Shown here: piece by piece, positions 31,900 to 54,958 of the stretch
How the letters are laid out: the number at the start of each line of letters is the position of its first letter
Position numbering within the stretch: position 1 is the first letter of the stretch
From: Candidatus Brevefilum sp.
GTDB taxonomy: Bacteria > Chloroflexota > Anaerolineae > Anaerolineales > Anaerolineaceae
Length of the DNA stretch: 64,000 nucleotides
NCBI GenBank assembly: GCA_029210815.1
Contig: JARGGB010000001.1
Coordinates: 1 to 64,000, forward strand
Direction of reading: 5' to 3'
Program-made: the position numbers and the translations under genes
The notes under the pieces: generated by a model
What the model was told of the DNA's origin: nothing
What the model saw: only the letters and a program-made list of their open reading frames with translations
The model's database searches: none

Positions 31900-34800
31900 A
31901 TGCCTTTAGAGGGATTGCTTGATTTAATTAGAACACAGTTTTCACCTGAGCAAAGACAAATGATTGTCAGCAGCCTGCAGCAAGATTCCCTGGTCTGGCA
32001 ATTCGCGCAGGATGAAGGCACAAGTTTGCCTTACTTTCAATCAAAAGTATCAGACATAGTGTCTTTTTCACCTGGAAGAATTAGCTTATGGCTAATTGGC
32101 AACGCAACGGGGCATGATTTAGAAAATCTTGATAACTTAGACAATCAAATTCCAGAAGAAATTTACCAACGGTCTTCTCAATCATTAGAGACTCTTAGCA
32201 ATACGGGCTTGCCGCCTGCAGATCTTACTTCTGCTGGTTTGTTAGCCCTGTCTGTTCGTGAATCCCGAAGAACTAAAGGTCATTGGCAGGGCATTGCTGG
32301 AGAATTATTTGGAAAGTCAAAAATAGTTGATATACAAAAATTCTTTCAAATTTGGCGAACCCCCTTTGCATGTCTATTCTCATACAGCCCGGACTTCAAT
32401 GATTTAATCCTGGATTTCTTGAATTCCGAAAAAGAATTTTTGGCTAAAGCAATCGTACCCCTAAGCATCCATGCTTACTTAGCCAATCCAATAAAGAGTG
32501 AAAATAGATTGGATCAAATATTTCAGCTGTATGTTAATCGTTCACAAGACCTGCAGCTTGACAGCCTAAAATGGCTTGAAATTTTCCACAGGTTTGACTT
32601 GCGCAAAATATTAGCTAAAAGTTACCTCGAAACAAAGAAAAATATCGACTTTTCTGCAGGTGTTTATGCCGAGATTGAAGCATTTAAAGCTTTAAATCAA
32701 GAAACCGATCCATTAGAAAAACAAATCAGGTATTCTTTGCCTGAAGACCTGAATCGATTAGCCGCTTATTACTACTACAGCGGGGATCAGCAAAGATCAT
32801 CAGAAACATATCAGCTATCCAGCGATCTGTTGAAATTTCTGGAATCACAAACATTGTTCCAATCGATTAATTCTCAAAAAGGTCAGACCTCCCCAACAAG
32901 CTGGATGGGTTTGATGGCTTCGCTTCCAAATTCAAAGACAATAAAACATTTTTACGTCAAAACGCTCATCGAATTGGGAAATTTGGACGAGGCAGAGGAA
33001 AAACTTGATTTTTTATCAGACTCTGATGAAAAACATATTCTGAAGACAAAGATTGAACAAAACAAGAACGATGAAGTACGGATCGACACAAATCAAGTCA
33101 ATATCAAGCAAAAAGAAAATTCCGGGTTCCCATCCTACTACGTCCATAATGCCCAATTTGATAAGGTCGGATATTTACTTCAAATGCTTGAAGCTCAAAA
33201 AGATAATCAAGCCATCATCAAATTCGCTGATGATATTCTAAAGAATCAATTCCAAAATTTAGATATCGTCAAAAAAATCAGGGACGTTTACGAGAAATCA
33301 CAACTGTTTGACAAAGCCCTGACATTAACCTCCTACCTTGAACTTAGGGAACCGGAAAACAAGGATAACCAACGAGCACTTGCCCGACTCTACAGCAAGA
33401 ACAATCGATGGGAAGATACCTTTGCGACATCACAGTCGTTTATCAAATCAACGCCGACTCCAGCAGTTGAAGATCTTGAAATTTTTGCCGAATCTGCCAT
33501 AAAAACAAATCGGGTTGACATAGCAATCTCAGTCTGCCAAAACATCCTTAAGAAGGATTCGCACAACACAAAAGCTTTAATCCTTCTTGGTGAAAGTTTT
33601 ATGCACAAGGGAGACATTATCAAAGCCATACAGCATATGGAAAATGTTGTCGAAATGATCCCTGAAGAACCTGAGACTTGGCTGACACTAGCCCGATTAT
33701 GGGCCCACAACGGACAAAAGGATCGATCCTTTGAAATCTTGAATAAAGGTGTTTTGGCATTGCCAAACGAGCCAAAACTTCTTCGAGCCTATGGCAAAGC
33801 ACTGTTGGATCGAAAAGCTCCTGCGGAGGCATTGCCCCACCTGGAGAAAGCGCACGAAATTGACCTCGAAGATTTACAGGGAAGCCTTGTTTTAGCAAAC
33901 GCACAACATCAATTAGGTCATTTTGATGCAGCATGGCGTTTGTTAGCACCCTTTGAAACGACCTACCCACAATATCCTGCTGTCTCAAAATTACTGGGTA
34001 AAGTTATGCTGGACATGGGCAGGGAGAAATCAGCTGAGCCCATACTGATTTTTGCAGCAGAGCAATACCCGGAAGATATCGATATTGTTTTAACAGCAGC
34101 AAGATTGATCATCAACAAATTTGAAAACAGTTTTGAAGAAACCCCTGAAGAAAATTTGGTGAGAGTTAATGAAATCCTCAATAAAGCACTCGAGATCAGT
34201 CCCAGCCAAATAGTTCTGAAATTACATCTGGCTGATATTGAAAGGCTGAGTGGTAATATTCAAACTGCCCTTGATCAATACAAAGCGCTTTCTGATGAAA
34301 TTTCCTCTGAAAAGTCTTCTTTAAATTGGCGCCTCAATTATGGCATCGGTAAAACATCGATTGCTCTCGGCGAGTTTGACATGGGATTGGCGGCACTCCA
34401 GGATGCGGGTTCAGAACAACCTGAAAATCTGCTCATTATCCACGGATTGGTGGAGGCTTACCAGGCTGCTGATTTACAGTCAAAAGGCAGGGATTTAGCA
34501 AACACAGCACTCAGATTAGCGCCACAAGACATAACGAATATTCTCTGGTTTGCGAATTTCAAAACTAAAAACAACGAACCAGAAGAAGCCGTAAATGCCC
34601 TGAGAGAGGCATTGCGCATCAATCCTGATAAACATCAACTTAAACTCTGGTTGGCAAAAATCCATTTATCGATTGGCGACCATGAAGAGGCAAAACAAAT
34701 TCTTTCTGATCTGACAAATCTAGAAAATACTTCCCCTGAAGACCTTCACCAGGCTGCCTATACTTGTGTTCGCATGAATGAATTAGCACTAGCGGTAGAA

Positions 34801-37314: not shown

Positions 37315-37316
37315 CA

Positions 37317-40132: not shown

Positions 40133-40159
40133 ATCAAAAAGCGAATAATTTGTTGTAGT

Positions 40160-40322
40160 ATCTTCGAGTCTGCCTGCCTAAAGCGCTGCAATGGCAATCA
40201 GACCGATAGGGTAAGAATGGAAACTTTCTTGCCTCCCGTGTTTGGAAAGGAGATTAACACAACAACACGATAAAGTTAAGATCGTTTTGTTTTGTGCGCT
40301 CCTTTTCTGGAAGGAGCTTTTT
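40160..40322 (+). promoter_or_regulatory. Structured leader with terminator/antiterminator, class not recognised
   Basis: Stems visible: GTCTGCC with GGC and CAGAC (about 40169-40203); GGGTAAGAA with TTCTTGCC (40209-40233); GTGTT with AACAC (40239-40260); and AACAACACGAT with ATCGTTTTGTT (10 of 11 pairs). The final hairpin GCTCCTT (40298-40304)/AAGGAGC (40311-40317) plus a T run is an intrinsic terminator that also holds the Shine-Dalgarno. An upstream AAAGGAG (40246-40252) can pair with the same CTCCTTT, giving a clear switch between two folds. It lacks the conserved cores of the TPP, cobalamin, FMN and glycine classes. Ligand unknown. Confidence 0.6.
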
Positions 40323-40324
40323 CT

Positions 40325-41704
40325 TTGACAATACAAAAGGAAAATAATAAATCCTTATATTTTTCAACTCACGATTTATTAATTATGGCAGTTTTAGCTG
40401 CGCTTGGGGGTGTCACCGGCACTTACATCAACGCGCTTGGTGATCTTGTACAGGCTGCCCTTGGTTTTCCGGGCGGGACACAGTGGGCAGCTGGCTTTCA
40501 TGTCCTGTGGATTGTGATTGCGTATGGGATCGTTCAAAAACCAGGAACCGGCATTGTCATGGGCTTGTTAAAAGGTGCGGTTGAGCTTCTGAGTGGAAAC
40601 AGCCATGGAATCATTATCTTATTGGTCGATTTGGTTGCTGGAATTTTAGTTGATTTCGGATTTCTCTTGTTTCGCAATAAAAGATCCCTTCTTGCCTATA
40701 TCCTCGCAGGTGGATTGGCTACCGGGTCCAATGTTCTGGTTTTTCAAATTTTTGCAACCATCCCTTTGAACATTCTTGGTTTGAGTGCAATTGCGATATT
40801 GTTTGTACTGGCTACCATTTCAGGTATCGTGTTTGCGAGCTTTCTGCCCTATTGGTTGATCAATGTACTCACAAATGCTGGCGTTGTTAAATTACCTGTA
40901 CAAAGAGAAAAGAAGCAAAAGTTGGGCTGGATCATCCTGTTAAGCACGTTGATTTTTGCTTTTGTCTTTACATTTGTATTGGTTGGAAAATTGAAAGGCG
41001 CAGAAACTATCAAAATTTCTGGCGCAGTAGAAAGCACCTTAGCGTTTCCAAACAACGAGCTTAATATCAAAAAAGTCACTCGACAAATGGAGTATCGCGG
41101 CGTCCTCACTTCATACGAAGGCTTCCCATTAAGTAAGATTATAAATTATGCGGAACCCTATAAAGACATGAATACCGTCCTGCTTGAAGCCTCAGATGGT
41201 TACGCCTTCATGATTAGCGCTGATGAACTAAATGAAAATGAAAATATTCTTCTTGTTCAACAAGGACGTGGACAAAACGCTTCCTTCGATATCGTTGGAC
41301 CTGAAAGCAGTAAAGCCTGGGTTCGGAACCTGATAGAAATTCGCTTGATTGCTGCCAAAGGACTTGAAGTCAATAATTTTCAGGGTGAGAAATATTTATT
41401 TGAAGCTAAAAACTGGATATCTGAGATGGACAGCACACAAATAGCTCTTCCAGAAGGATCTCAAAAACTGCAAGGTGTGCCTATGTGGAAAGTCATTGAA
41501 GCTTCAGAAACAAGAAGTAACATCTCTCAAGTCATTTTTAAATCAGAGGAAGGTCAAGACCTCACGCTTGATTGGGAAACAATCAATCAAAATAACGACA
41601 TTCGTTTATTCATTTTGATTGAGGATGAAGGTATCAGTTACGTTCTTGCTGAAATGTCCGGTGATGTTCTTGTTTACCCAATATCAAGCATAGAAATTAA
41701 TTAA
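40325..41704 (+). CDS. ECF transporter S component fused to SUOX-like extracellular domains
   Basis: 459 residues from TTG 40325, preceded by GGAAGGAG. Residues 10-220 form about six helices resembling YkoE-type ECF substrate-binding membrane proteins (LAALGGVTGTYINALGDLVQ, GLLKGAVELLSGNSHGI). After a further helix, residues about 235-459 hold two domains resembling the sulfite-oxidase/molybdopterin-binding fold (KISGAVESTLAFPNNELNIK, YRGVLTSYEGFPLSKII, ASDGYAFMISADEL; then LQGVPMWKVIEA). The transporter subunit probably sits with the ATPase and EcfT encoded next. Substrate: an unidentified vitamin or cofactor. Fusion of these two modules is unusual. Confidence 0.82.
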   Translation: MTIQKENNKSLYFSTHDLLIMAVLAALGGVTGTYINALGDLVQAALGFPGGTQWAAGFHVLWIVIAYGIVQKPGTGIVMGLLKGAVELLSGNSHGIIILLVDLVAGILVDFGFLLFRNKRSLLAYILAGGLATGSNVLVFQIFATIPLNILGLSAIAILFVLATISGIVFASFLPYWLINVLTNAGVVKLPVQREKKQKLGWIILLSTLIFAFVFTFVLVGKLKGAETIKISGAVESTLAFPNNELNIKKVTRQMEYRGVLTSYEGFPLSKIINYAEPYKDMNTVLLEASDGYAFMISADELNENENILLVQQGRGQNASFDIVGPESSKAWVRNLIEIRLIAAKGLEVNNFQGEKYLFEAKNWISEMDSTQIALPEGSQKLQGVPMWKVIEASETRSNISQVIFKSEEGQDLTLDWETINQNNDIRLFILIEDEGISYVLAEMSGDVLVYPISSIEIN

Positions 41705-41707
41705 TCG

Positions 41708-43207
41708 ATGAGCTGGGTCGAAGTAAAGCAATTTTCCTATTCATATCCCGGTGAGAACACACCCGTCTTTCGTGATTTGAATTTTGTAATCAATCGCGGC
41801 GATTTTGTAGTGATCACAGGTAAGTCAGGTTGTGGAAAATCCACCTTCGGTAAAGCCCTTGCAGGTTTCTTATTTCAGGATGATACAGCTAATTATTCAG
41901 GAAAAATAATTATCAATAGCGAAGATATGACCCAACTGCCCCTTTATGAAGCCAGCAGAAAAGTTGGGTACGTTCAGCAAAATCCTGAAGATCAATTTTG
42001 CACACTCAATGTTGACGATGAAATTGCCTTTGGTCTTGAAAACTTGTGTGTTGCGCCAGATGAAATCGAAGACCGAATAAATCAATCACTGATGATTGTT
42101 AAAGGCATAGAACTAAGGGGTCGCGACTTAGCTACGCTATCTGGTGGAGAAAAGCAAAAGGTAGCGATTGCATCCATGCTTGCCCTATCTCCTGAACTTT
42201 TGATCCTCGATGAACCGACATCGAATTTAGATCCCATTGCCACCCGGAATATATTCCAAACCCTTCACAACTTACGGGAGTCTATGGGTTTGACATTAAT
42301 CATTTTTGAGCATAAATTATCTCAACTGCTTGATTTAGATCCAAAATTTTTTGTACTTGACCAGGGTGAAATTAAACCCCTAGGAAATAATCAATACCAA
42401 TCTAAATCTGTAAACAGGATAAATCTTTCGTTTCCTGGAAAGACTTCTCTTCATAATGATCATAAAAACATCATGATCAAAGTTGAGAATCTTAATGTGG
42501 CAATTCAGAACAAAATCATTCTTCAGGAAATTAATTTCGCAATTGTTCCCGGCGAGTTTATTGCATTAATGGGACCAAACGGCAGTGGTAAAAGTACTTT
42601 ATTACAATCATTGGTTGGTTTTCACCCGCCAAGCAGTGGAAACATTCGTTGCTTCGACCAGGCATCCCCTAATATAAAAACATCCAGTCTTGTTATGGAT
42701 CTTGGATTTATATTCCAAAATCCTGATCATCAATTGTTTACGCAATCTGTTGTGGATGAAGTGATATTCACTTCAGAAAACCTTAAGATTCTCAACGATG
42801 AAATGGCTAATCTTGCCCAAAAATGGCTTGATCAAATTGAATTATTGGACCGAGTGGATGATCACCCACAGCGTCTCAGTTATGGTGAAAAACGACGTCT
42901 GAATCTTATCGCTGCAATGCTTCACAATCCAAAGCTTCTGATTATCGATGAATTATTGATTGGTCAGGATATGGCGAATGCATTAATGTGGATGAAGATA
43001 TTACATGACTATACGAAGCTCGGAAATTCAGTCCTGCTGGTAAACCATCACCCCGAACTTACTAAAGAATTTTGCAGTCGCTTGATATTCCTTTATGAGG
43101 GAAGAATGTTACTTGATCAGCCTGTAGACTTAGCATTTGAAACGTTAAGAACGGCTGGTTTTGAGCCCTTTGTACCCGGCAAGAGAGTGAGTGAAATTGA
43201 TGCATAA
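41708..43207 (+). CDS. ECF transporter ATPase, two fused ATP-binding domains
   Basis: 499 residues comprising two ABC ATPase domains: the first with Walker A GKSGCGKST, signature LSGGEKQKV and LILDEPTSNLD; the second with GPNGSGKST, LSYGEKRRL and LLIIDELLIG. This is the duplicated EcfA arrangement that powers ECF uptake systems. It lies three bases after the S-component gene and overlaps the EcfT gene. Confidence 0.95.
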   Translation: MSWVEVKQFSYSYPGENTPVFRDLNFVINRGDFVVITGKSGCGKSTFGKALAGFLFQDDTANYSGKIIINSEDMTQLPLYEASRKVGYVQQNPEDQFCTLNVDDEIAFGLENLCVAPDEIEDRINQSLMIVKGIELRGRDLATLSGGEKQKVAIASMLALSPELLILDEPTSNLDPIATRNIFQTLHNLRESMGLTLIIFEHKLSQLLDLDPKFFVLDQGEIKPLGNNQYQSKSVNRINLSFPGKTSLHNDHKNIMIKVENLNVAIQNKIILQEINFAIVPGEFIALMGPNGSGKSTLLQSLVGFHPPSSGNIRCFDQASPNIKTSSLVMDLGFIFQNPDHQLFTQSVVDEVIFTSENLKILNDEMANLAQKWLDQIELLDRVDDHPQRLSYGEKRRLNLIAAMLHNPKLLIIDELLIGQDMANALMWMKILHDYTKLGNSVLLVNHHPELTKEFCSRLIFLYEGRMLLDQPVDLAFETLRTAGFEPFVPGKRVSEIDA

Positions 43208-43976
43208 ACTCAGCTACTCACCTGGCAGCAGCCTTATGCATCGCCTCTATCCATTGACAAAATTTGCCTGGCTGCTGCTCACGACAATTTTTGCCTTCAT
43301 CGTTAACCGTGCAGAGCTGCTCGCCATCACTGCTTTATTTAGTCTTGTCATGCTATTATTGGTCAAGCCCGATATCTCAAAGGTGAGAGGTTTTCGACTG
43401 GTATTAGCAACAGGACTCACTCTCTTTGCTCTTTATATTCTTTTTGATAAACAAGGAAAAACTCTTTTGGATCCTGGCATCGGTCTTTTGCGGGTTACAT
43501 CGAGCGGATTTAATCTGGGCTTACTCATAAGCAGTCGATTTTTGTTGATTATTTTTAGCAGTTACCTCTTTATCTTGACCACAAAACCCAATGACATTGC
43601 TTATGCTCTGATGAAAATTGGTTTGCCATACCGATATGGATTTATGCTGGTGACCGCATTAAGATTGGCACCCATCCTCGAAGAAGAGGGGCAAACCATT
43701 TATAAGGCACAACTTTTGCGTGGTGTGCGTTATGACCAGGGAAGCGTTTTCAAAATCCTGAATCTCATCAAACAATTCTTGACACCCCTGCTGATAAGCG
43801 CCCTTCGTCGGACGGACAAGCTGGTTTTCAGTATGGAAGGTAGAGGTTTTGGAAGGCAAACTGGACGAACATTTCACAGAAGCCCAAAAGCAACTCAACT
43901 TGATTTATTTATCAGCCTGATTCTGATAGTTTACTTTGCCAGTTTATTATTTTTGAATTATTGGAGAGCCCTATGA
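43200..43976 (+). CDS. ECF transporter transmembrane protein EcfT
   Basis: 258 residues from ATG 43200; GTG 43191 is alternative. Five to six membrane helices, with the coupling-helix region carrying the ALRLAPILEEEGQTIYKAQL segment and ISALRRTDKLVFSMEGRGFG, typical of EcfT/CbiQ proteins. It joins the fused ATPase to the S component. The stop overlaps the next ATG (ATGA). Confidence 0.93.
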   Translation: MHKLSYSPGSSLMHRLYPLTKFAWLLLTTIFAFIVNRAELLAITALFSLVMLLLVKPDISKVRGFRLVLATGLTLFALYILFDKQGKTLLDPGIGLLRVTSSGFNLGLLISSRFLLIIFSSYLFILTTKPNDIAYALMKIGLPYRYGFMLVTALRLAPILEEEGQTIYKAQLLRGVRYDQGSVFKILNLIKQFLTPLLISALRRTDKLVFSMEGRGFGRQTGRTFHRSPKATQLDLFISLILIVYFASLLFLNYWRAL

Positions 43977-44893
43977 AGAAGCACCAATCAAAACCGATTA
44001 CGATTTTTCTCATTGTCTTTACCATTGTGCTGCTTGGTGTGATCATTGCACTTGTCATCACTACAAAACCAATGCCAGTTTCTTTACTGCAAGAATATGG
44101 CTTGGGTTTGCTCTGGGAAGAGGGTTTGGCGATGAACGAATGTGCAGAATGCCATGATTCAGTGGATTTCCACTCCTGCGTAACCTGTCATGACGATCAT
44201 GGGGCTGTTGAACTAACAAATATCCCTTTTTCTGAGATCGTCGAATTAACAGGGGACGTCCCAGATCCAAGCTTTGTAAAGATCCATCAGGTAATTCCAG
44301 ATCAAGAAAATTTAGGAACCCATATCACATTACTCAATTTCTTAGAAATTCACGGTGTCCAGGAGTTTGAAACTGTGACATTCACAACTAATGACGGCGG
44401 ATTAACCACAATTGAATACCAATATCTCGATGAAACGGCGATGTTAGTTCCTTATATTGATGGCGTTCGTTTCATAACAGAAACCATTCATAATTCAACT
44501 TGGCTGAAAGGCATCAACCGGATCACGATTGTTGGGAAAGACAGACCCCTCACGATTGATGGTGAATCGACTTCGATTGGAAGATTGTTATTAGGCGATA
44601 CAATGCGGTTAACGGTCGAAGGATCAAATGTCATGCTTTCCGATGAGACTGGGAACCTGAGCCGTGCTATGGTTGCAAACTGGGTAGAAGGGCCTCGACT
44701 TTTGGACCTATTAAGAACTAAATCTCCAGATGGAATTTTAATTACAGGTGTGAATGGTGATGTCACAGAATTGACAGCTGATGAAATTCAAAATGCAATC
44801 ATTGCAATTGTGAAAGATGAGGTTACCCTCGTTTTACCAGATCGAGGAAGAAGTGCCTGGCCAACTCAAATTGTAGAAATAGAGTCATATTAG
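43973..44893 (+). CDS. Membrane-anchored two-haem c-type protein with SUOX-like domains
   Basis: 306 residues from ATG 43973, seven bases after GGAG. An N-terminal membrane helix (8-31) is followed by two CXXCH haem-c sites, CAECH (57-61) and CVTCH (69-73). The remaining 230 residues contain two segments resembling the SUOX-like domains of the S component (FTTNDGGLTTIEY region; GPRLLDLLRTKSPDGILITG). It would face outside. A haem protein inside a vitamin-uptake operon is odd and suggests redox handling of the ligand or of the cofactor. Confidence 0.8.
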   Translation: MKKHQSKPITIFLIVFTIVLLGVIIALVITTKPMPVSLLQEYGLGLLWEEGLAMNECAECHDSVDFHSCVTCHDDHGAVELTNIPFSEIVELTGDVPDPSFVKIHQVIPDQENLGTHITLLNFLEIHGVQEFETVTFTTNDGGLTTIEYQYLDETAMLVPYIDGVRFITETIHNSTWLKGINRITIVGKDRPLTIDGESTSIGRLLLGDTMRLTVEGSNVMLSDETGNLSRAMVANWVEGPRLLDLLRTKSPDGILITGVNGDVTELTADEIQNAIIAIVKDEVTLVLPDRGRSAWPTQIVEIESY

Positions 44894-44895
44894 AA

Positions 44896-46026
44896 ATGTT
44901 AAAAAACAAAACCAAAATTATTCTATTGCTGTTCTTTGTTTTCTTTCTTTCTTCCTGTGGACCTGCCTGGGAAATTAATGTCATTGAAGATGGACGCAAT
45001 ACTGGCGTAATCAATCAAGAAAGTTTCGAATTCTACGACGATAATTACAAGGATGAGACCAGTGAAATCCCCCTGGGTCAAACGCTATATGACATAGGCT
45101 ACACGCTCATCGATGAAATCACATTCAAATCGGAAAGCGACTCAAGCGTGACATATGTTTGGGACGAAATGGGCGAGACAGCTGTAATTCAGGGATCCGG
45201 TGAGATCACACTGGAAGATGGCACAAAGATATCAGCGGATCAAATTGAAATTGAAACACCTTCAATTTCCAGTTATTACTCCATTATGGATATTGCGCCG
45301 ACCATCGCCTACGCCTTTAATTTGCCAGAATTACCGGATACCAAAGGCCAGGTCCGTTTGACCGAATCAGGCGTATGGGATCATGCTGTTATGATTTTCC
45401 TGGATGGCCTTAATTACGACATCCTCACATCATTAATTGATACAGGGAAATTACCTTTTTTTAAACAATTAAACGGGATTCAACAGGGAATAACAGTATT
45501 TCCACCCATTACAACATCCTCATCAGCAGCGCTTCTAACCGGTACACCGCCAAAAGAGAATGGCGTTTATGGTTATGGGTACCGCACAACCACAACTACA
45601 ACGCTTTTCGACCTTTTTGCAGAACAAGGTAAATCGGTAACTGCCGTAGAAGGACACAGCCTGGCTTTCAATTTGAGAAATGCGGAGACAATTTTGAGCG
45701 GTGATCGGGATGAAAATGGCTTCACGAATGACAATGTCTTTGAAAACAGCCTTGAAGTCATCCGCTCGAATATGCCAGATTTGCTTTATATCCATTTTCA
45801 TGACATCGATGAAATGGGGCATCAATACGGACCTTTTTCTTCAGAATACGAAACAGCCATCATCCAGGTCGACAGCTATTTGGAAGAGATTTTTACAAGG
45901 CTGCCAGAAGACACCCTGATCACAATCTTTGGTGACCATGGCATGCACAAAACAGAAGACGGCGGAAACCATGGCACCTTAACAGCCGCCGATCTAATTA
46001 TTCCCATCATTTTTATCGAAAAGTAA
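44896..46026 (+). CDS. Lipoprotein phosphodiesterase/nucleotide pyrophosphatase-like
   Basis: 376 residues. The lipobox LSSC places the lipidated Cys at 21. Residues about 25-125 may be another SUOX-like domain (weak). From about 165 it is alkaline phosphatase superfamily: metal Asp in VMIFLDGLNYD, likely nucleophile in PPITTSSSAALL, HDIDEMGHQYG, FGDHGMHK and a final GNHGT His. Enzymes of this type split phosphodiester or pyrophosphate bonds of nucleotides and cofactors, so it may trim a phosphorylated or nucleotide-linked precursor before ECF uptake. Confidence 0.85.
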   Translation: MLKNKTKIILLLFFVFFLSSCGPAWEINVIEDGRNTGVINQESFEFYDDNYKDETSEIPLGQTLYDIGYTLIDEITFKSESDSSVTYVWDEMGETAVIQGSGEITLEDGTKISADQIEIETPSISSYYSIMDIAPTIAYAFNLPELPDTKGQVRLTESGVWDHAVMIFLDGLNYDILTSLIDTGKLPFFKQLNGIQQGITVFPPITTSSSAALLTGTPPKENGVYGYGYRTTTTTTLFDLFAEQGKSVTAVEGHSLAFNLRNAETILSGDRDENGFTNDNVFENSLEVIRSNMPDLLYIHFHDIDEMGHQYGPFSSEYETAIIQVDSYLEEIFTRLPEDTLITIFGDHGMHKTEDGGNHGTLTAADLIIPIIFIEK

Positions 46027-46036
46027 AGGAGTTGAT

Positions 46037-46531
46037 ATGGTTAAAGTCAAGCAACAAAAAGTAAATATTCCAAAATGGGTATTACTGATATGCATTTCCA
46101 TGCTGCTCACCGCCTGCGGTGGAACGCCTAAAGTTGAATGGGAGCTCTCCATTTCAGGCGATGTGAACAATCCAACAACATTTTCATTCGCCCAGTTGGC
46201 CGAAATGGAACTGGTTGATTTGAATGAAGTGCTCATGGAAAAATCACGGGGAGAAGACGAAGTCCGTTCTTTTAGCGGTGTTCCCCTTGCCTTACTTTTA
46301 GAAAAAGTTGGTGCCCCGGATGATATCAGCACAATTACCGCAATCGCAGCCGACGGTTACGCTATTGAAATCAGCAAAGACGAAATGGTCGATGGCATTG
46401 TCGCCCTCAAACAATCCGGCGAATGGATTGTCGATGCTGATCCAGACGCTGGTCCCATTCGATTGGTTTTCCCAACAACACCAGCCAATCGTTGGGTTTT
46501 TCAAATAAACGAGATTATTGTCAACAAATAA
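46037..46531 (+). CDS. Lipoprotein with SUOX-like (molybdopterin-binding-fold) domain
   Basis: 164 residues; lipobox LLTAC gives Cys27. The mature domain has WELSISGDVNNPTTFSFAQL, RSFSGVPLALLLEKVGAP and AADGYAIEISKDEM, the pattern of the sulfite-oxidase middle domain, without the Cys that ligates Mo in true enzymes. Probably an extracellular binding protein for the adjacent ECF transporter. AAAGGAG precedes the start. Confidence 0.82.
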   Translation: MVKVKQQKVNIPKWVLLICISMLLTACGGTPKVEWELSISGDVNNPTTFSFAQLAEMELVDLNEVLMEKSRGEDEVRSFSGVPLALLLEKVGAPDDISTITAIAADGYAIEISKDEMVDGIVALKQSGEWIVDADPDAGPIRLVFPTTPANRWVFQINEIIVNK

Positions 46532-46559
46532 CAACAATCAATATCAAGAAAGGACCATC

Positions 46560-46982
46560 ATGAAAAAATCAATCTTATTCACAAGTCTGTTTATTCTAAT
46601 TACCTTACTCGCTGCATGCAGTCAAACGCCAGAAGCAGTGGTAACGGAAACCGCCGTCCTGACAGTAGGATCAGAAGAATTTTCGCTGTCAGAATTAGAA
46701 GCTTATGAGACGGTGTCCGCCGACTATACTAACAAGGATGGTGAAACATCTACCTTCGAAGGTGTTGCGCTCACTGACATTTTGCAGGACGCCAACCTCA
46801 TCGATGGAGATACCCTCGTCTTTACAGCTTCAGACGGCTATGAAGCAGAATTGCCGCTTGAAGAAGCCTTGAGCTGTGCAAATTGTATTGTTGCCTTCGA
46901 TGACGACATTCTACGCATGGTTATGCCTGATATGTCAAGCAAACTTCAGGTCAAAGATGTCATAAAAATCAGCGTGAAATAG
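46560..46982 (+). CDS. Second SUOX-like lipoprotein
   Basis: 140 residues from ATG 46560 (AAAGGA just upstream; the upstream GTG-like start at 46518 would spoil the signal peptide). Lipobox LAAC, Cys20. The mature part resembles the preceding protein: FEGVALTDILQDANL and ASDGYEAELPLEEAL. It has two Cys (CANC) near residue 110. A paralogous binding protein is likely. Confidence 0.82.
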   Translation: MKKSILFTSLFILITLLAACSQTPEAVVTETAVLTVGSEEFSLSELEAYETVSADYTNKDGETSTFEGVALTDILQDANLIDGDTLVFTASDGYEAELPLEEALSCANCIVAFDDDILRMVMPDMSSKLQVKDVIKISVK

Positions 46983-47041: not shown

Positions 47042-47482
47042 ATGCCAATCATCACACCTTCAAGGCGCTGGCAGCAGGCTTATTATCCCTTTAAAAAACG
47101 CAGTCTGCCTGAAAAAATTGAAGAAAACATTGAAAGAACTGTCAAAGGTGTTTTATGGGGATGCCGGATGTGCGGGAATTGCCTGCTCCAGGAAACGGCT
47201 TTCATTTGTCCCATGGCATGTCCCAAAGGGCTGCGTAATGGACCTTGCGGCGGTTCATCACCGGACCATTGCTGCGTCGATGAATCTCGACCCTGTATTT
47301 GGTATGAAATCTATCGAAGAGCAGAAAACATGGGTCGACTTGACAAACTACTTGAAGTGCTGCCGCCGTTGGACTGGGACAAAACCGGCACATCTGCATT
47401 AAGAGATGTTTACGAAAAGGCACATGAAATTGGATTATTAAAAATTGTGTCCAAGACAACGCATTCGTCCTCTGAAGAATGA
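47042..47482 (+). CDS. metV: MetV-type iron-sulfur partner of methylene-THF reductase
   Basis: 146 residues with a dense Cys cluster (C41, C44, C47, C56, C60, C69, C77, C78, C85; CRMCGNCLLQ, CPMACPKGLRNGPCGG), the pattern of MetV and MTHFR C-terminal domains of acetogens. It binds FeS/zinc and teams with MetF to reduce methylene-THF. No Shine-Dalgarno is seen, since the hairpin ends eight bases upstream. metF follows 24 bases later. Confidence 0.9.
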   Translation: MPIITPSRRWQQAYYPFKKRSLPEKIEENIERTVKGVLWGCRMCGNCLLQETAFICPMACPKGLRNGPCGGSSPDHCCVDESRPCIWYEIYRRAENMGRLDKLLEVLPPLDWDKTGTSALRDVYEKAHEIGLLKIVSKTTHSSSEE

Positions 47483-47506
47483 AAGCGGGGTTGGGATCGT
47501 TTCTTC

Positions 47507-48472
47507 ATGGAGATCCGTCAACCGGCTTGGTGGGATGGGGATTCACAATACCACCCCGCACCACACCATGAACCCGTTTCGAAATTTGAGAAAAAGCTTA
47601 CTGAAGGCAGTTTTGTAGTCACCTGCGAACTCGTCCCCCCCTTATCCAGTGACTATGCATCTCTAAAGAATAAAATCACAAAACTAACAAACATTGTTGA
47701 TGCAATTAATATTACAGACAGTGCTTCAGCAATACCACGTTTATCACCAATGACGTGCGCCATCGAAATGCTCGAATTAGGCATTGAGCCAATACTGCAA
47801 ATGGCAGCCAGGGACCGAACACGACTCAGCCTTCAATCCGACCTGATTGGTGCTTCCGCTTCTGGTATTCGCAATATCCTGCTAATTACCGGCGACCATC
47901 CTAACAAAGGTAAAAAACCTTTCAGTAAAATGGATATCTGGGATTATGACAGCATCCAGGCAGCATGGATTGCAAGAAAATTGAGAGATGAACAAATCTA
48001 TTTAGATGGTCGAAAGGTTTCCAATCCACCAAGCTACTTTATTGGTTCAGCCGCATCGCCTAATGCATCGGAGCCGAGGTACCAGGCGATCCGCATGGAG
48101 AAAAAGATCAATGCTGGTACACAATTTTTCCAAACAAATTTAATTTTTGACAAAGCAAGATTTGAATCCTACCTGGAAGCACTTGATAAGCGTAATCTCT
48201 TGGGCAAAATGCACCTCATTGCTGGTATAACAGCCATTCGAAGTATTAACGCCGCCAAGTTCATGAACGATTTGCCAGGGATCGAAGTGCCTGATAAAAT
48301 TATTAAGCGACTCTTGAGTGCAAAAGACATCAAAAAAGAAGGCTATCTGATTTGTTTGGAGTTGATTGGAAAAATTAGATCCCTCCCTGGCATTCAGGGT
48401 ATCCACTTCATGGCAATTGATGATCCTGAAAGCATTAAGAGTTTGATTGTCGACAGCCATTTGAAAAATTAA
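47507..48472 (+). CDS. metF: Methylenetetrahydrofolate reductase
   Basis: 321 residues. The barrel pattern of MetF is visible: TCELVPPLSSDYASL, INITDSASAIPRLSPM, ILLITGDHPNKGK, YFIGSAASPNA, FFQTNLIFD and HLIAGITAIRS. It would make methyl-THF in methionine synthesis or a Wood-Ljungdahl methyl branch; FAD/FMN use is family knowledge. Pairing with MetV suggests the ferredoxin/NADH-linked acetogen type rather than the E. coli type. Confidence 0.93.
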   Translation: MEIRQPAWWDGDSQYHPAPHHEPVSKFEKKLTEGSFVVTCELVPPLSSDYASLKNKITKLTNIVDAINITDSASAIPRLSPMTCAIEMLELGIEPILQMAARDRTRLSLQSDLIGASASGIRNILLITGDHPNKGKKPFSKMDIWDYDSIQAAWIARKLRDEQIYLDGRKVSNPPSYFIGSAASPNASEPRYQAIRMEKKINAGTQFFQTNLIFDKARFESYLEALDKRNLLGKMHLIAGITAIRSINAAKFMNDLPGIEVPDKIIKRLLSAKDIKKEGYLICLELIGKIRSLPGIQGIHFMAIDDPESIKSLIVDSHLKN

Positions 48473-48768: not shown

Positions 48769-48796
48769 TTGACAAAAAACGTAGTATCATTAGAAT
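48769..48796 (+). promoter_or_regulatory. Sigma-70 promoter of the cobalamin-riboswitch operon
   Basis: TTGACA (48769-48774) and TAGAAT (48791-48796), spacer 16, just before the riboswitch. Confidence 0.75.
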
Positions 48797-48810
48797 GATT
48801 AATAAATAAA

Positions 48811-48973
48811 TAAGCCATAAAGGGTGCACCTCCTGCCCGGATGCAAGGTGCACAATGGGGGAAGCTGGTGAAAGTCCAGCACTGTCCCGCAACGGTAACA
48901 CCATTGGTGAAGTCCGATAACCCGCCCTTTATGACCCAAAACACTTCGTGGAAAGGCAGTTTGGGTATCGGAT
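48811..48973 (+). promoter_or_regulatory. Cobalamin (B12) riboswitch
   Basis: P1 is CATAAAGGG (48816-48824) with CCCTTTATG (48925-48933). The conserved core GCTGGTGAAAGTCCAGCACT (48864-48883) followed by GTCCCGCAACGG and then AGTCCGATAACCCGCC (48911-48926) is diagnostic. Downstream GGGTATCGGA (48964-48973) can pair with TCCGATAACCC of the aptamer, an alternative fold. A terminator at 49027-49055 completes the switch. Expected: B12 binding reduces expression. Confidence 0.95.
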
Positions 48974-49026
48974 TTTATTAAATAGTTCCGACCTCATCCT
49001 GTCGCCCAACCTGGGCGTTATGATTT

Positions 49027-49055
49027 AACGACCTTTTCACGAAAAGGTCGTTTTT
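49027..49055 (+). terminator. Intrinsic terminator of the cobalamin riboswitch
   Basis: CGACCTTTT (49029-49037) pairs with AAAAGGTCG (49042-49050), then TTTTT. It lies between aptamer and the first gene. Confidence 0.9.
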
Positions 49056-49076
49056 AATTAGAAAAGGATTTGCGCT

Positions 49077-51563
49077 GTGACAAAAACCATTCTTAAAACT
49101 GTTTTCATAATTTTTACTGCAGTTACTTTATTGACCGCCACCGTGCCTGGTGTGGTTGCTAATCCCACACAAAAGCATTCTCACCAGGAAAATCTACAAA
49201 CGCACATTGAAAGGGCATTTACTTACCTCGAAACCCAAATCAATCAAGATGGCGGCCTTCGTTGGATCGAAGAAACATCAAGCGTCCCCGCCACAATTCG
49301 CACAATTTTAGCACTGGCCGCAAATCATTACCCACAGGACTATCTAAAATCCCCTTCAGGAAAGCTGCCCATTGATTTCCTGTCGATTTCCATTTACGAC
49401 TGGGTCAACCAGTCTGACAGTGAATCACATGCTTTTAATGTCGCAAGAGCCGGCCAACTCCTTACTGCAATTGCTGCTGCGAATAAAAATCCGAGGCATT
49501 TTGGTCAGGATCCTGTTGATTTTATTTACGAAATCAACAGCCGCTACGATTCAACGACGGGTGTTTATGGTGATGCAGCAGGAGAAAACGTGACGGATCA
49601 GGTTTGGGCAATCCTGGGATTGGCCGCCAATAATGCTTCAATTCCAACGGATGCCATTGATTGGCTTGTCCGTGCTCAAAATGAGGACGGCAGCTGGAAC
49701 GATGGGTTTGGCGGTTTCCTTGATATGACACCTTTAGCAGTTATGGCATTAACCGCATCTGACCATGACAACGCAAACCTACCTGACATTCAAAATGCGA
49801 TCGGTTTTCTAAAAAACAATCAACAAAACAATGGCGGATGGCAAACACAATGGGATTCGACCACCAATGCCAACACGACAGGTTTGATCCTTCAGGCAAT
49901 AAGCGCAGTAGGTGATAATCCTCTGGATGAAACCTGGCTAAAAGATGGTGCTGATCCCTTCCAAGCACTTCTCGCATTGCAAAAAGAAGATGGAATGATT
50001 GGCGGTGAGTATGGAAACGCATATTCAACAGCCGAAGCTTTGCTTGGTCTGTCAGGGCAACCGCTTTATGCTTTAGGCTATGTCAAACGAGCAAACCATG
50101 CATTTGATTACATCATTGAAAGCCAGGGACCAGATGGCGGTTGGGAAACCATTGGGCAAACCATTGATGTCATTTTGGCTTTACGAGCCGCCGGATGGGA
50201 TCCGAATACCATAACCAAAAACGAAAAAAGCCCTTCGGATTACATTGCCAATAACCTGGAATCTTATCTTGAAAATGGTCCGGATGCACTTGGGAAGCTC
50301 AACCTTGGTTTGGTCGCAAGCGGCAAAAATCCAAGGATGTTTGCTGGCAAGAACCCAATAGCAATGCTCCTGGAGACGTATGATCCAAATTTAAATGCCT
50401 TTGGTGATGCTAACAACACCTGGCACCAGGCAATGGCTATCCTTGGGCTTGCTGCAGCAGGTGAAGTAATTCCAGATGGTGCAGTTGATACTTTGAATTC
50501 ACTTCAAACGGAAAACGGCGGCTGGGAATATGCCGCAGGCACTGGCATCTGGTCTGATAATACTGCCTTGGCAATCCAGGCATTATTGGCAGCAAATGTC
50601 AGCAAGGAGGACCCAAGTATCAAGATGGGATTAACTTACATCACCGAAATGCAATTAGAGGATGGCAGTTGGGGTGATACAAGCACAACAGCCTTCGTCT
50701 TGATGGCACTTAATGCCCTGGATGAATCTAGTTCTGAATGGAAAACCGAGAATAACCTGAGCCCATTGCCAAGTTTACTTTCCTATCAGAAACCAAACGG
50801 CGCTTTCGTTTACTCATGGGACTACCCGGACGATAATTTGATGGCGACAACAGCATCTTTGCTGGCTCTGTTTGATGGAAGTTACCTGGTAACGCCTCCT
50901 GAAACAAAGCCCTATACTGCTTTGATTATCGACCCAAATCAACAGGGAGAAATCATAACCAAATGCATCCCCCTAAATGAAGACACCACTTCTGGAATGA
51001 CGCTTTTAGATTCCTCTGGATTGACCGTGGATTCGGAAGGTGGATTTATTAACGCTATTGAAGGATTCAAAAATCCTAAAAATGGTACCCTGTACTGGTC
51101 TTACTGGTATTGGGATGGAAGAGAATGGCAGTTTTATGAAACCGGTGCAGCTCAAACAGAAGTTGTTCCTGGCAGCATCCAGGCATGGTTCCTGACGAGT
51201 TGGGAACAATTCCCATCCAAACCGCCCACATACGGTACAAACTTAAGTGAAATTTGCGGAACAGATGTATTAAAAAATTATCAAGCCCAAACCTATCTTA
51301 ACTACGGAGATCTCTTTAAATCTCAAGAAGGTAATTTTATTCAACAAGGTACACCACAATCACCACAAATTAATGAACTCTCTTCAACTGAGAGCTTTGT
51401 GACAGAAACGCCAGATTTGATGGGAGAACATACACAAAATGAGGTGAAGCTTGAGGATGAAGAAGCAGAGCAATTTAATACCCTCCCTCTTGTAATCCTT
51501 GCAGCCTTCGGAATTCTCCTGGCAGCTTTCCTTTATTTCAAGTACATCCGAAAGACGTCATGA
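49077..51563 (+). CDS. Transcobalamin/intrinsic-factor-like surface protein
   Basis: 828 residues, GTG start after AAAAGG. Signal peptide 1-29. Residues about 40-600 are alpha/alpha-barrel repeats of the prenyltransferase/terpene-cyclase type (NEDGSWNDGFGGFLD, NNGGWQTQWD, GPDGGWETIG, ENGGWEYAAGTG, EDGSWGDTST). Residues about 610-730 match the DUF4430/transcobalamin beta domain (SGMTLLDSSGLTV, AIEGFKNPKNGTLYWSYWYW, VVPGSIQAWFLTSW). An acidic spacer leads to a membrane helix (802-822) and short basic tail. Animal intrinsic factor and transcobalamin have the same two-domain plan and bind B12 between the domains. With the B12 riboswitch and the ECF transporter next to it, it is probably a surface B12 or corrinoid capture protein. 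Confidence 0.85.
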   Translation: MTKTILKTVFIIFTAVTLLTATVPGVVANPTQKHSHQENLQTHIERAFTYLETQINQDGGLRWIEETSSVPATIRTILALAANHYPQDYLKSPSGKLPIDFLSISIYDWVNQSDSESHAFNVARAGQLLTAIAAANKNPRHFGQDPVDFIYEINSRYDSTTGVYGDAAGENVTDQVWAILGLAANNASIPTDAIDWLVRAQNEDGSWNDGFGGFLDMTPLAVMALTASDHDNANLPDIQNAIGFLKNNQQNNGGWQTQWDSTTNANTTGLILQAISAVGDNPLDETWLKDGADPFQALLALQKEDGMIGGEYGNAYSTAEALLGLSGQPLYALGYVKRANHAFDYIIESQGPDGGWETIGQTIDVILALRAAGWDPNTITKNEKSPSDYIANNLESYLENGPDALGKLNLGLVASGKNPRMFAGKNPIAMLLETYDPNLNAFGDANNTWHQAMAILGLAAAGEVIPDGAVDTLNSLQTENGGWEYAAGTGIWSDNTALAIQALLAANVSKEDPSIKMGLTYITEMQLEDGSWGDTSTTAFVLMALNALDESSSEWKTENNLSPLPSLLSYQKPNGAFVYSWDYPDDNLMATTASLLALFDGSYLVTPPETKPYTALIIDPNQQGEIITKCIPLNEDTTSGMTLLDSSGLTVDSEGGFINAIEGFKNPKNGTLYWSYWYWDGREWQFYETGAAQTEVVPGSIQAWFLTSWEQFPSKPPTYGTNLSEICGTDVLKNYQAQTYLNYGDLFKSQEGNFIQQGTPQSPQINELSSTESFVTETPDLMGEHTQNEVKLEDEEAEQFNTLPLVILAAFGILLAAFLYFKYIRKTS

Positions 51564-52363
51564 AAAACACGCTAACGGGGATTTTGACAGATATCTTTGT
51601 CTTTCTTGTAGGTCTTTCGAGTCTTCTGGCACCCTTTATCCTTCCTCAGTCTCGGAATTCAGAAATACAATCTTCGGCTTTTCCAATTGTGGTCAGCCTG
51701 ATCATCATTTTGTGCCTGGCAATCGTTTTTATTGAAACACAATCATCTGTACTGGATAATAAAATGATTGCCTTTTTAGGCGTCCTAATTTCAATCAACG
51801 CTGGTTTGCGATTTCTTGAGAATGCAATACCTGGTCCTGCAGGTTTCAGCCCGACTTTTTTCCTGATAATATTGGTGGGTTACTTCTTTGGAAGTCGAAT
51901 CGGTTTCCTGATGGGCGCAATGACCATGTTCGTGTCAGGTTTGATTACCGGCGGCATCGGACCCTGGCTGCCAGGACAGATGATCACAGCAGGCTGGGTG
52001 GGTCAAACTGCATCCATTGCATCTTTTATAAGTAAGAAGCTTCACTTCAAAGAAAAGTTTGGTGAAGTTTTAGTATTGACCTTTTTTAGCGCGTTTTGGG
52101 GAATGCTTTATGGACTGATTATGAACCTCTGGTTCTGGCCTTTCCTTGCCGGCGGCGCAGGATCATCATGGAGCCAGGATGCCAGCCTGCTGGAAAACCT
52201 GGGCAAATACGGTGCATATTATTTGGCGACTTCTGTCATTTGGGATATCACCCGCTCTATTGGCAATATCCTTATCATGCTGACGATGGCACGCCCATTC
52301 TTAAAAGTGTTTCAACGCTTTTATCTGCGTTTTTCATTTCACTTCGAAGGGTCAGAATCATGA
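51560..52363 (+). CDS. ECF transporter S component, probable cobalamin/corrinoid specificity
   Basis: 267 residues with about six membrane helices (FFLIILVGYFFGSRIGFLMG, TGGIGPWLPGQMITAGWVG typical of ECF S components). The ATG overlaps the stop of the surface protein (ATGA). Riboswitch and neighbour argue for B12 or a corrinoid; no other specificity evidence. Confidence 0.85.
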   Translation: MKNTLTGILTDIFVFLVGLSSLLAPFILPQSRNSEIQSSAFPIVVSLIIILCLAIVFIETQSSVLDNKMIAFLGVLISINAGLRFLENAIPGPAGFSPTFFLIILVGYFFGSRIGFLMGAMTMFVSGLITGGIGPWLPGQMITAGWVGQTASIASFISKKLHFKEKFGEVLVLTFFSAFWGMLYGLIMNLWFWPFLAGGAGSSWSQDASLLENLGKYGAYYLATSVIWDITRSIGNILIMLTMARPFLKVFQRFYLRFSFHFEGSES

Positions 52364-53376
52364 AAAATGCTTATATTTGGGTTTTGTGGCTCGTTAATGC
52401 AATCATCTTTGTACTGTCGACAAGAAATCCAATTTACCTTTTCCTTGTTTTAATTTCCCTGTTTATCCTTGGGAACCGAAAAACAAAACCGCAGCATAGA
52501 AAAGCTTGGTTCATCCTTAATCTTCGCTTTCTTATCTCAATGATTTTGATCTCATCACTTGTTAACGGCTTATTTACGCACCTTGGTCAAACCAAATTAT
52601 TCCACTTCCCATCAAATTGGCTTTTGATTGGTGGAGATATCACCCTTGAATCTCTCATCTATGGTGCCGTTAACGGCTTGATCATTGGTTCGCTTTATCT
52701 CAGTTTCAACATTTTCAACTTAGCCTTGAGCGTGAAACAGCTGAGTCGGTTGATACCACGTGCCTTCCATCCAATTGGGATGACTGCAACATTGGCATTG
52801 ACCTTTTTTCCTTCTATTCAACAAAGAGCCAGGGAAATCAAGGAAGCACAAATGATCCGTGGAAATCCAATGAAAAAGATATCTGATTGGCTGCCAATTC
52901 TTTTGCCTTTGATCGTAACCAGCCTTGAAGATGCTATAATCCTTTCAGAATCGATGACATCGAGAGGTTTTCACGCTGTTTCCAACCGAAATCAAGAAAA
53001 TTTTTCAATTATCAGCCTGGTTATTGGCACTTTTTTAATTTTTTCTGGATGGATATTGAATTTATTTGATTATCCACAAGTCATCAGCATTTTTCTATAT
53101 GTGGTTGGTGGAAGCCTCATCATCTTCATCCTGTTAAAAAAAGGCTGTGAATTCAGAGTCACACATTATCACCGGGTTTCATGGCAGAAGAAAGATATCA
53201 TTTTCTGCGCCATTTTTCTAATTGCAATTATTACTCAAATCATTTTTGCTGCGCTCTATGAGAATAATTTTTCCTTTACACCCTATCCACAATTATCCAT
53301 GCCATCGCTCAATATTGGAGGCTTCCTGCTGAGTGTTGTTCCCCTTATCCCAATACTGGCGTCCAACCATGATTAA
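52360..53376 (+). CDS. ECF transporter transmembrane protein EcfT
   Basis: 338 residues from ATG 52360; an upstream open frame from 52096 is not used. Seven or so helices with the EcfT region LALTFFPSIQQRAREIKEAQ and TSLEDAIILSESMTSRGFHA. ATGA overlap with the S component before it and eight-base overlap with the ATPase gene after it. Confidence 0.9.
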   Translation: MKNAYIWVLWLVNAIIFVLSTRNPIYLFLVLISLFILGNRKTKPQHRKAWFILNLRFLISMILISSLVNGLFTHLGQTKLFHFPSNWLLIGGDITLESLIYGAVNGLIIGSLYLSFNIFNLALSVKQLSRLIPRAFHPIGMTATLALTFFPSIQQRAREIKEAQMIRGNPMKKISDWLPILLPLIVTSLEDAIILSESMTSRGFHAVSNRNQENFSIISLVIGTFLIFSGWILNLFDYPQVISIFLYVVGGSLIIFILLKKGCEFRVTHYHRVSWQKKDIIFCAIFLIAIITQIIFAALYENNFSFTPYPQLSMPSLNIGGFLLSVVPLIPILASNHD

Positions 53377-54958
53377 CATTGAAGCCTTATCCTTTAAATA
53401 TCCGAATATCTCGCAATACGCTCTCGAAAATGTTGATTGTCAAATCGAACCAGGCACACTGACCCTGATTATCGGCCCATCTGGGAGCGGCAAATCTACT
53501 TTCTTACGCTGCATCAACGGTCTTGTACCGCATTTTTCAGGGGGTACAATATCCGGAAAAATTGATGTTTTTGGGTCTGACCCAATCACAGATGGGCCTG
53601 AAACGCTTGCTGCAAATGTTGGATTTGTGTTTCAAGAGCCCGAAGCGCAATTCGTTTTTGATATCGTTGAAGATGAAATTGCCTTCTCTCTGGAAAACAT
53701 GGGGGTTCCAAGGACAGAAATGCACGCTCGTGTTGATGACATTATTGAACGCCTGGAATTATCCTCAATTCGCCATCGATCAATCCATGAAATTTCTGGA
53801 GGAGAAAAACAAAAGGTGGCGATTGCCAGTGTGCTTGTGACAAATCCAAAGGTATTGCTTTTGGATGAACCCACATCGCAGCTTGACCCCATTTCCGCTA
53901 ATCAAATTTTAAAATTATGCGTTCACTTAAAAAACAATTCTGACCTGACCATCATGATCTCAGAGCACAGGCTCGAAAGACTGCTCCCCTATACAGACAA
54001 GGTTATAGAAATAAATGATGAGCACAAACTGTTCATTGGCAGCCCGGAACAAATAATCCCACATTTACAAAATGTGCCGCCAGTTGTGGCAATCGGGAAA
54101 AAATTAGGACTGAATCCACTGCCCTTAACAGTTGAGGGTTTTCCAGATAATGTAATCAATAACAAAAAACCTGGTGCCAAGTTGGTTCTACCGGTTTTGC
54201 AAGAAACAAATTCTGAACCAATTTTAGAAATAAAGCACCTGTCTGCACAAATTAATCAGAAGGCAATCCTTGATGATATATCTTTTAACTTGAAGCAATC
54301 AGAAATCCTTGTTCTTCTTGGGAAAAACGGCTCTGGAAAGACAAGTTTGTTAAGATCGATTTTGGGATTAATGGTTTCCATGGGCGAGAAATATTTTAAG
54401 GGTCAAAATTTTACAGATTTGCCCATCACCAGGATATTAGACCAAATAGGTTACTTACCACAAAACCCAAGTGATTTGCTTTTTGCTGAAACCATCCTCG
54501 ACGAATTAAAAATCACCCTTAAGAACCATGGGCTTGAAAAGACGGATCAAGATTTAATCGATTTTCTTCAACAATTCAATCTTGCGGAAAAATCGCACCA
54601 ATACCCGCGGGATCTATCCGTTGGCGAGAGGCAGCGCATTGCCTTGGCAGCTATCACAGTTCATGACCCTGACATCATTTTTTTGGACGAACCAACCCGC
54701 GGCTTGGATTATGCTGCAAAAGATTTACTTTCTATGCTTTTCAAAGATTGGCGAGATTCTGGAAAGGGGATCTTGCTGATCACACACGATGTCGAATTTG
54801 CCGCAGATTTGGCTGATCGGGTCACCATACTTGAAGGGGGAAAAATTATCTTCACTGGCTCACCCTCCGCCGCCTTTTCACAGTTTCCTGCTTTCCAAAC
54901 ACAAACTGCCAGGTTATTCAATGCGTTTGGGTGGATCCTGCCTGAACAAGTTTCTTAG
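53369..54958 (+). CDS. ECF transporter ATPase, two fused ATP-binding domains
   Basis: 529 residues from ATG 53369. First domain: GPSGSGKST, ISGGEKQKV, LLLDEPTSQLD. Second: GKNGSGKTS, LSVGERQRI, IFLDEPTRGLD. It energises the S component and EcfT encoded just upstream, ending the cobalamin-riboswitch operon. Confidence 0.95.
   Translation: MINIEALSFKYPNISQYALENVDCQIEPGTLTLIIGPSGSGKSTFLRCINGLVPHFSGGTISGKIDVFGSDPITDGPETLAANVGFVFQEPEAQFVFDIVEDEIAFSLENMGVPRTEMHARVDDIIERLELSSIRHRSIHEISGGEKQKVAIASVLVTNPKVLLLDEPTSQLDPISANQILKLCVHLKNNSDLTIMISEHRLERLLPYTDKVIEINDEHKLFIGSPEQIIPHLQNVPPVVAIGKKLGLNPLPLTVEGFPDNVINNKKPGAKLVLPVLQETNSEPILEIKHLSAQINQKAILDDISFNLKQSEILVLLGKNGSGKTSLLRSILGLMVSMGEKYFKGQNFTDLPITRILDQIGYLPQNPSDLLFAETILDELKITLKNHGLEKTDQDLIDFLQQFNLAEKSHQYPRDLSVGERQRIALAAITVHDPDIIFLDEPTRGLDYAAKDLLSMLFKDWRDSGKGILLITHDVEFAADLADRVTILEGGKIIFTGSPSAAFSQFPAFQTQTARLFNAFGWILPEQVS

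Follow-up and report, generated by a model that had tools for sequence, protein, structure and literature searches.

A candidate transcobalamin-like surface protein encoded with an ECF importer behind a cobalamin riboswitch in a Brevefilum-like Anaerolineaceae genome

How does a bacterium capture vitamin B12 when its only cobalamin riboswitch is followed by a large secreted protein and an energy-coupling factor (ECF) transporter? This question is raised by a 64,000-nucleotide stretch of Candidatus Brevefilum sp. (GenBank assembly GCA_029210815.1, contig JARGGB010000001.1, positions 1 to 64,000 of the forward strand), hereafter called the window. Our analysis indicates that the first gene behind the riboswitch probably encodes a surface corrinoid-capture protein of the transcobalamin/intrinsic-factor kind, which would bind cobamides, feed them to an ECF importer repressed by B12 (cobamide) and thereby replace the binding protein BtuF. 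B12 is favoured as the ligand because of two independent genomic results, namely the exchange with riboswitch-linked BtuC within the family and the linkage to the riboswitch across the phylum. The operon comprises the following features:

48769-48796, plus strand: promoter-like site TTGACA-16-TAGAAT, agreeing with 11 of 12 consensus positions (a consensus match only)
48805-48943, plus strand: cobalamin riboswitch aptamer RF00174, full-length, E 1.8e-13
49003-49017, plus strand: G+C-rich hairpin CGCCC-AACCT-GGGCG, with similar hairpins in several relatives
49027-49057, plus strand: intrinsic-terminator-like hairpin of 11 pairs with a T tract, between the aptamer and the start codon at 49077
49077-51563, plus strand: transcobalamin/intrinsic-factor-like protein, 828 amino acids (aa), GTG start
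51560-52363, plus strand: ECF S component (substrate-binding membrane protein), PF12822 at 39.8 bits against 30.7
52360-53376, plus strand: ECF T component of the CbiQ family, PF02361 at 41.9 bits against 25
53369-54958, plus strand: ECF ATPases A1 and A2 fused in a single protein with two ABC domains, TIGR04520 at 336.8 bits against 315

The aptamer passed the RF00174 covariance-model test with 63.9 bits against a gathering threshold of 31.5, and it is the only copy in this genome (2.66 Mb, 96% complete). It starts 9 nt past the end of the promoter-like site. The G+C-rich hairpin could possibly form part of the expression platform, and the hairpin with the T tract likely serves as a transcriptional off-switch, since its position between aptamer and GTG codon would fit the layout of a transcription-terminating riboswitch. 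Downstream of the aptamer lie four overlapping genes, all on the plus strand, encoding the 828-aa protein, S, T and the fused double ATPase; the S component gene overlaps the stop codon of the 828-aa gene (ATGA). S, T and two ATPase domains are all present. The first-pass annotation had described a riboswitch, the 828-aa gene in first position and then a complete ECF transporter, and this order was borne out by RF00174, Pfam and TIGR04520.

The order of carrier, S, T and A genes is kept in all relatives within the genus for which enough sequence exists, and a cobalamin riboswitch was found in eight of the eight genus loci that include upstream DNA. Because the order of riboswitch, carrier and ECF genes recurs in eight genus loci and, usually as separate genes, across the phylum, it is more than chance. 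Most other members of the family have a different arrangement. The riboswitch was found over the cut-off in 54 of 61 family genomes. In 47 of these a FecCD permease is encoded on the riboswitch strand and no more than 4 kb downstream; this linkage was absent from all five genomes with the operon described here. At the family loci that were read, the genes encode a PF01497 binding protein, a FecCD permease and an ATPase, that is, BtuF-BtuC-BtuD, and the closest solved structures to BtuF of one such locus (L039) include vitamin B12-binding proteins. When 28 FecCD proteins were placed in a tree, the 18 linked to a riboswitch grouped together with a branch support of 100/100, and the single FecCD protein of the window genome was placed on the other side of that branch. 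This latter protein belongs to the genome's only FecCD-type importer (contig C9, 18700-22460; L075, 2705-6460), alongside which are encoded a lipoprotein of the PF01497 family and an ATPase that carries a fused NTPase_1 domain.

Since riboswitch and FecCD genes are linked elsewhere in the family and this linkage is absent where the carrier operon occurs, the genus of the window swapped BtuFCD for this operon. The carrier-ECF operon replaces the BtuC-containing operon under the same kind of switch. It had been suggested from the sequence that the first protein could, in a monoderm cell, do the job that BtuB/BtuF do in diderms; of these two, BtuF is the right counterpart, since BtuF-BtuC-BtuD occupies the riboswitch slot in sister genera. 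The BtuF domain itself (Peripla_BP_2, PF01497) had no match in the 828-aa protein in our Pfam scan.

Further evidence comes from outside the family. A profile of the 828-aa protein and its relatives, in which alpha/alpha toroids are fused to a beta domain, matched 159 of 400 Chloroflexota genomes, although the weakest of these matches may be ordinary cyclases. We chose 40 distant Chloroflexota loci by protein score only, disregarding RNA. Toroid and beta domain were mostly encoded there by two separate neighbouring genes, with ECF genes nearby in 36 loci and a cobalamin riboswitch upstream of the toroid and/or beta genes on the same strand in 35 (median distance 127 nt, 32 of them within 400 nt). 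As there are few riboswitches in a multi-megabase genome, linkage in 35 of 40 loci cannot be chance. No riboswitch over the cut-off was found in the other five loci (L151 and L166-L169), one of which has a sub-threshold aptamer of 22.7 bits; L166 lies near a contig end. Furthermore, the plasmid of Streptomyces SAT1 shows the order riboswitch (41.8 bits), toroid gene, hypothetical gene, T, A, S and metE, the last being the gene for the B12-independent methionine synthase.

Riboswitch control would be identical if the operon imported a B12 precursor or cobalt (cobinamide, a lower-ligand base or Co2+) and not finished cobamides. Cobalt transporters also sit behind cobalamin riboswitches (PMC2667541), ECF-CbrT also transports cobinamide (PMC5997447), and the T component in the window is of the CbiQ family. 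However, the S component resembles PF12822 and not CbiM, the operon substitutes for a BtuC-containing operon in the family, and a metal ion needs no large two-domain surface protein. CbiC and CobS, moreover, had no match in the window genome and were likewise not found in five other genomes with the operon, a result that covers two marker families in draft genomes and leaves no route from such precursors to a cobamide. Without these enzymes neither cobalt nor cobinamide should be usable, so that what such a cell takes up should be a finished cobamide. B12-binding domains gave five matches in the genome, of which four exceed the cut-off; one match lies in a protein of 1202 aa, the size of MetH. 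Judged by its gene content, the genome looks like a cobamide auxotroph, and we regard import of a precursor or of cobalt as quite improbable.

The 828-aa protein itself was divided into the following parts:

49077-49163, plus strand: N-terminal hydrophobic signal sequence, residues 1-29, from sequence, with a helix at residues 2-21 in the model
49182-50060, plus strand: alpha/alpha toroid 1, residues 36-328, closest to squalene-hopene cyclase with Z 25.1 over 268 residues (rmsd 3.0)
50070-50876, plus strand: alpha/alpha toroid 2, residues 332-600, squalene-hopene cyclase at Z 23.7 and transcobalamin chains at Z 19-19.5 (rmsd 3.5-3.8)
50889-51281, plus strand: DUF4430-like beta domain, residues about 605-735, with conserved YWSYW...G.W...G and cysteines 630 and 727
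51483-51557, plus strand: C-terminal transmembrane helix with basic tail, residues 803-827, from model and sequence, ending in KYIRKTS

These boundaries are approximate and derive from an AlphaFold2 model built on an alignment of 11 sequences (mean pLDDT 81.7, pTM 0.80), in which each of the two toroids separately matches solved toroids. Toroid 2 is missing from the one-toroid relatives L030 (526 aa) and L041 (534 aa) of a related genus, whereas the genus of the window has two. The signal peptide and C-terminal anchor expected by the first-pass annotation agree with the hydrophobic N-terminus (helix 2-21) and the C-terminal helix (803-827). Its description of one alpha/alpha-barrel plus DUF4430 holds for the succession of toroid and beta domain but not for the number of toroids, which is two, nor for DUF4430, which stays below the Pfam cut-off.

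Toroids of this kind invite another explanation, in which the operon encodes, by happenstance, a membrane cyclase (terpene or prenyl) as its first protein. Pfam places the toroids in squalene-hopene cyclase families (PF13243 and PF13249, both over the cut-off), and toroid 1 reaches a Z of 25 to squalene-hopene cyclase. On the other hand, the protein has a signal for secretion as well as an additional beta domain, and its linkage to cobalamin riboswitch and ECF genes is conserved. The DXDD motif of class II terpene cyclases is absent from both toroids of the window and from 36 of the 37 toroids compared. We rejected a terpene cyclase function because this catalytic motif is lacking, and consider the explanation scarcely credible.

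When the complete fold was compared, the animal carriers came out first. In a Foldseek search of the whole PDB with the window protein, transcobalamin took ranks 1-6 (best E 1.5e-9), haptocorrin rank 11 and intrinsic factor ranks 19 and 24. For a one-toroid relative (AlphaFold2 model with pLDDT 78.1 and pTM 0.58), ranks 1-15 were all transcobalamin, haptocorrin or intrinsic factor, followed by cyclases and prenyltransferases. The alignments were about 440 columns long, which gives room for a toroid plus the beta domain. With sequence profiles, the Pfam family Cobalamin_bind (PF01122) scored 13.0 bits on the window protein, below its cut-off of 25, and matched five of 11 relatives (best E 5.4e-3). 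PDB profile searches with the fused family, the toroids and the beta domains returned squalene-hopene cyclases or nothing useful, and transcobalamin was absent among the matches listed; the link to the animal carriers is therefore fold-based and not sequence-based.

Several observations weigh against a carrier of the animal kind. In both models the toroid and beta domain are placed relative to each other in a way unlike the animal carriers, with a superposition rmsd of about 22 Å, meaning that the two domains match sequentially without a shared relative placement. VIA-align of intrinsic factor with the window model, for example, gave Z 20.0 over 325 residues at rmsd 22 (model residues 332-709). 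Domain placement in AlphaFold2 models from 11-13 sequences is weak, and with it the geometry of the interdomain cleft. Animal carriers were not among the best 50 VIA-align matches of the one-toroid model, which does not in itself exclude the family. The DALI-like Z of single toroids favours cyclases, the toroid sequences are closer to squalene-hopene cyclase repeats than to transcobalamin, and a second toroid has no counterpart in animals. Pfam DUF4430 (PF14478) scored 13.5 bits on the window beta domain, under its cut-off of 23.8, and hhalign gave no link (0.2%) between beta domains of the window type and a DUF4430 protein of Lactiplantibacillus. Finally, besides this operon the genome contains the FecCD-type ABC importer on contig C9. 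As run here, structure prediction and superposition on the animal carriers spoke for the relationship in fold ranking, and the unreliably modelled interdomain placement did not match. What was earlier called the same architecture as animal B12 carriers stands for the toroid-beta fold order seen by Foldseek and fails for the two toroids and the missed Pfam cut-offs.

The beta domain of the window is DUF4430-like by fold and gene position only; one genus relative came closer to the DUF4430 cut-off with 22.8 bits, still under 23.8. Four other Chloroflexota genomes (G149, G229, G379 and G440) encode a DUF4430 protein well over the cut-off close to the toroid gene and on its contig; in G440 the two genes directly adjoin each other. 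In this last, small genome (L182; G440 contig C1, 71819-75031) the toroid gene encodes a lipoprotein, and the pair adjoins an open reading frame that by eye resembles an adenosylcobalamin-dependent ribonucleotide reductase, a further B12 link. The NCBIfam models SCO2321 and SCO2322 matched all 11 fused proteins (best E 6.5e-42 and 2.1e-8, respectively), and for the SCO2321 equivalog NF053823 the window protein scored 122 bits, below the curated cut-off of 300.

A locus with a relative of an experimentally proven transporter was found on the Lactiplantibacillus plasmid pMF1298-5, where CbrV-CbrU-CbrT (gene names from PMC6722938) are encoded beside nrdJ and a cobalamin adenosyltransferase. CbrT is a B12 transporter proven by experiment (PMC5997447). 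The S component of the plasmid matches the solved ECF-CbrT chain 6fnp_A (E 1.8e-9) as well as the S family of the window (98.8%, hhalign). A direct profile match of the window S component to 6fnp was not obtained, and the connection runs indirectly through the Lactiplantibacillus S component. After CbrT follows a protein of 350 aa that hhalign identifies as toroid-like at 96.9%, and then a true DUF4430 protein with a score of 59.5 bits; no cobalamin riboswitch was found on pMF1298-5. In L. rhamnosus a DUF4430 gene adjoining rtpR appears in a proteomics paper (PMC9963975).

The same transporter also lends weight to an explanation in which B12 is imported and captured by S alone, the toroid/beta protein serving instead as a surface scaffold, as receptor of a partner already loaded with B12 or as an enzyme that works on the corrinoid. 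S components of the CbrT type bind cobalamin unaided (PMC5997447), toroids are common as scaffolds and enzymes, and genomic linkage is evidence of a shared pathway only. Against this, cobalamin carriers outrank every other PDB entry as matches to toroid and beta domain taken together, the two parts co-occur even as separate genes, and the 828-aa protein sits in the place of BtuF. We therefore think it unlikely that the protein takes no part in capture. Import of B12 by the operon, with the first protein as its transcobalamin-like extracellular part as initially proposed, is supported by the fold ranking, the exchange with BtuFCD, the linkage in the phylum and in Streptomyces, and the auxotrophy.

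For a capture protein of this kind we propose the following course of events. When intracellular cobalamin is scarce, the riboswitch would let transcription through the terminator. The product of the first gene would be secreted and kept at the membrane by its C-terminal helix, and an alpha/alpha toroid and the DUF4430-like beta domain might clamp a cobamide between them outside the cell. The cobamide would then be handed over to the S component and driven across the membrane by the T-A1A2 module. At high B12 the terminator would presumably form and switch the operon off. The computed parts of this explanation are the riboswitch, gene order, ECF membership, fold, phylum linkage, exchange of the BtuC operon, and the null result for CbiC and CobS together with the presence of B12-binding proteins.

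In the literature searched, including the topics of DUF4430 with cobalamin and of CbrTUV, we found no description of a toroid/beta protein as a bacterial B12 carrier. Import of B12 by ECF transporters is no novelty in itself, and the ECF part may already have been predicted by comparative genomics. If our interpretation is correct, bacteria of this kind own a B12-capture protein of animal-type design, the hitherto unassigned SCO2321, SCO2322 and DUF4430 families beside ECF genes are accounted for, and there is a second solution to B12 scavenging, cleanly exchangeable with BtuFCD under the same riboswitch. The origin of intrinsic factor and transcobalamin, so far unexplained, would also gain an outgroup among prokaryotes. 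We tentatively raise the possibility that the pairing of toroid and DUF4430-like domain is of ancient prokaryotic origin and acts as a corrinoid clamp for ECF importers (in Chloroflexota, Actinomycetota and Bacillota), usually made of two proteins and fused here, and that the animal carriers are later, membrane-free members and not an animal invention. For a shared ancestry of the animal carriers and the toroid/beta pair the modelled fold would argue, the sequence not yet.

Other loci of the window are described here in their own right. Directly 5′ of the B12 operon (47042-48472, plus strand) lie genes for DUF5981 (MTHFR C-terminal-like) and MTHFR; these one-carbon enzymes supply B12-dependent methyl transfer. 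At 40150-46982 (plus strand) a second ECF importer is encoded behind a molybdenum cofactor (Moco) riboswitch (RF01055, 76.7 bits). Its genes encode a PF09819 S-like protein, a double ATPase and a T component of the CbiQ family. Next come genes for a protein of 310 aa containing CxxCH motifs, for a lipoprotein resembling phosphodiesterases and for two small lipoproteins of the molybdopterin-binding fold (SUOX, PF00174), which the C-terminal half of the S-like protein resembles by eye. This operon is a candidate importer of molybdenum cofactor or of molybdenum or tungsten with surface cofactor-binding parts, in a design as in the B12 operon. In four other loci (L095, L098, L099 and L102), too, a Moco riboswitch precedes the cobalamin riboswitch by about 7-9 kb. 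Furthermore, the window contains an ordinary glycine riboswitch (5019-5113, plus strand) before a glycine cleavage P-protein gene (5589-6944), and genes for an 1804-aa TPR-repeat protein and then an 879-aa protein lacking any Pfam match (31900-39956, plus strand).

Among known systems, animal transcobalamin, intrinsic factor and haptocorrin (PF01122 plus PF14478) are likewise secreted, with an alpha/alpha toroid followed by a beta domain, and they are the best PDB fold match for both the window protein and its one-toroid relative. The window protein differs from them in its two toroids, its C-terminal membrane anchor and a sequence below both Pfam cut-offs, and it would be coupled to an ECF importer whereas the animal carriers are coupled to endocytosis. 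BtuF-BtuCD uses the same regulatory slot in sister genera, with riboswitch, binding protein and importer, but has an unrelated binding-protein fold (PF01497) and another type of ABC importer. BtuG, BtuH and DUF4465 of Bacteroidota (PMC6143338, PMC8941943, PMC13398666) also capture B12 at the surface; they are other protein families, which partner with BtuB in diderms. ECF-CbrT (CbrTUV) of Lactobacillales is an ECF importer as well (PMC5997447), and the S family of the window is homologous to the CbrT-matching S component of Lactiplantibacillus. As far as consulted, the CbrT study (PMC5997447) mentions no surface protein, in contrast to the fused toroids and beta domain of the window. The Lactiplantibacillus CbrTUV locus also has toroid-like and DUF4430 proteins, whereas the ECF module of the window is dedicated and stands behind a cobalamin riboswitch. 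The fused proteins match both SCO2321 and SCO2322 of Streptomyces, where a related locus consists of a toroid gene and then ECF genes; SCO2321 and SCO2322 are two separate models, and their counterpart in the window is a single fused protein.

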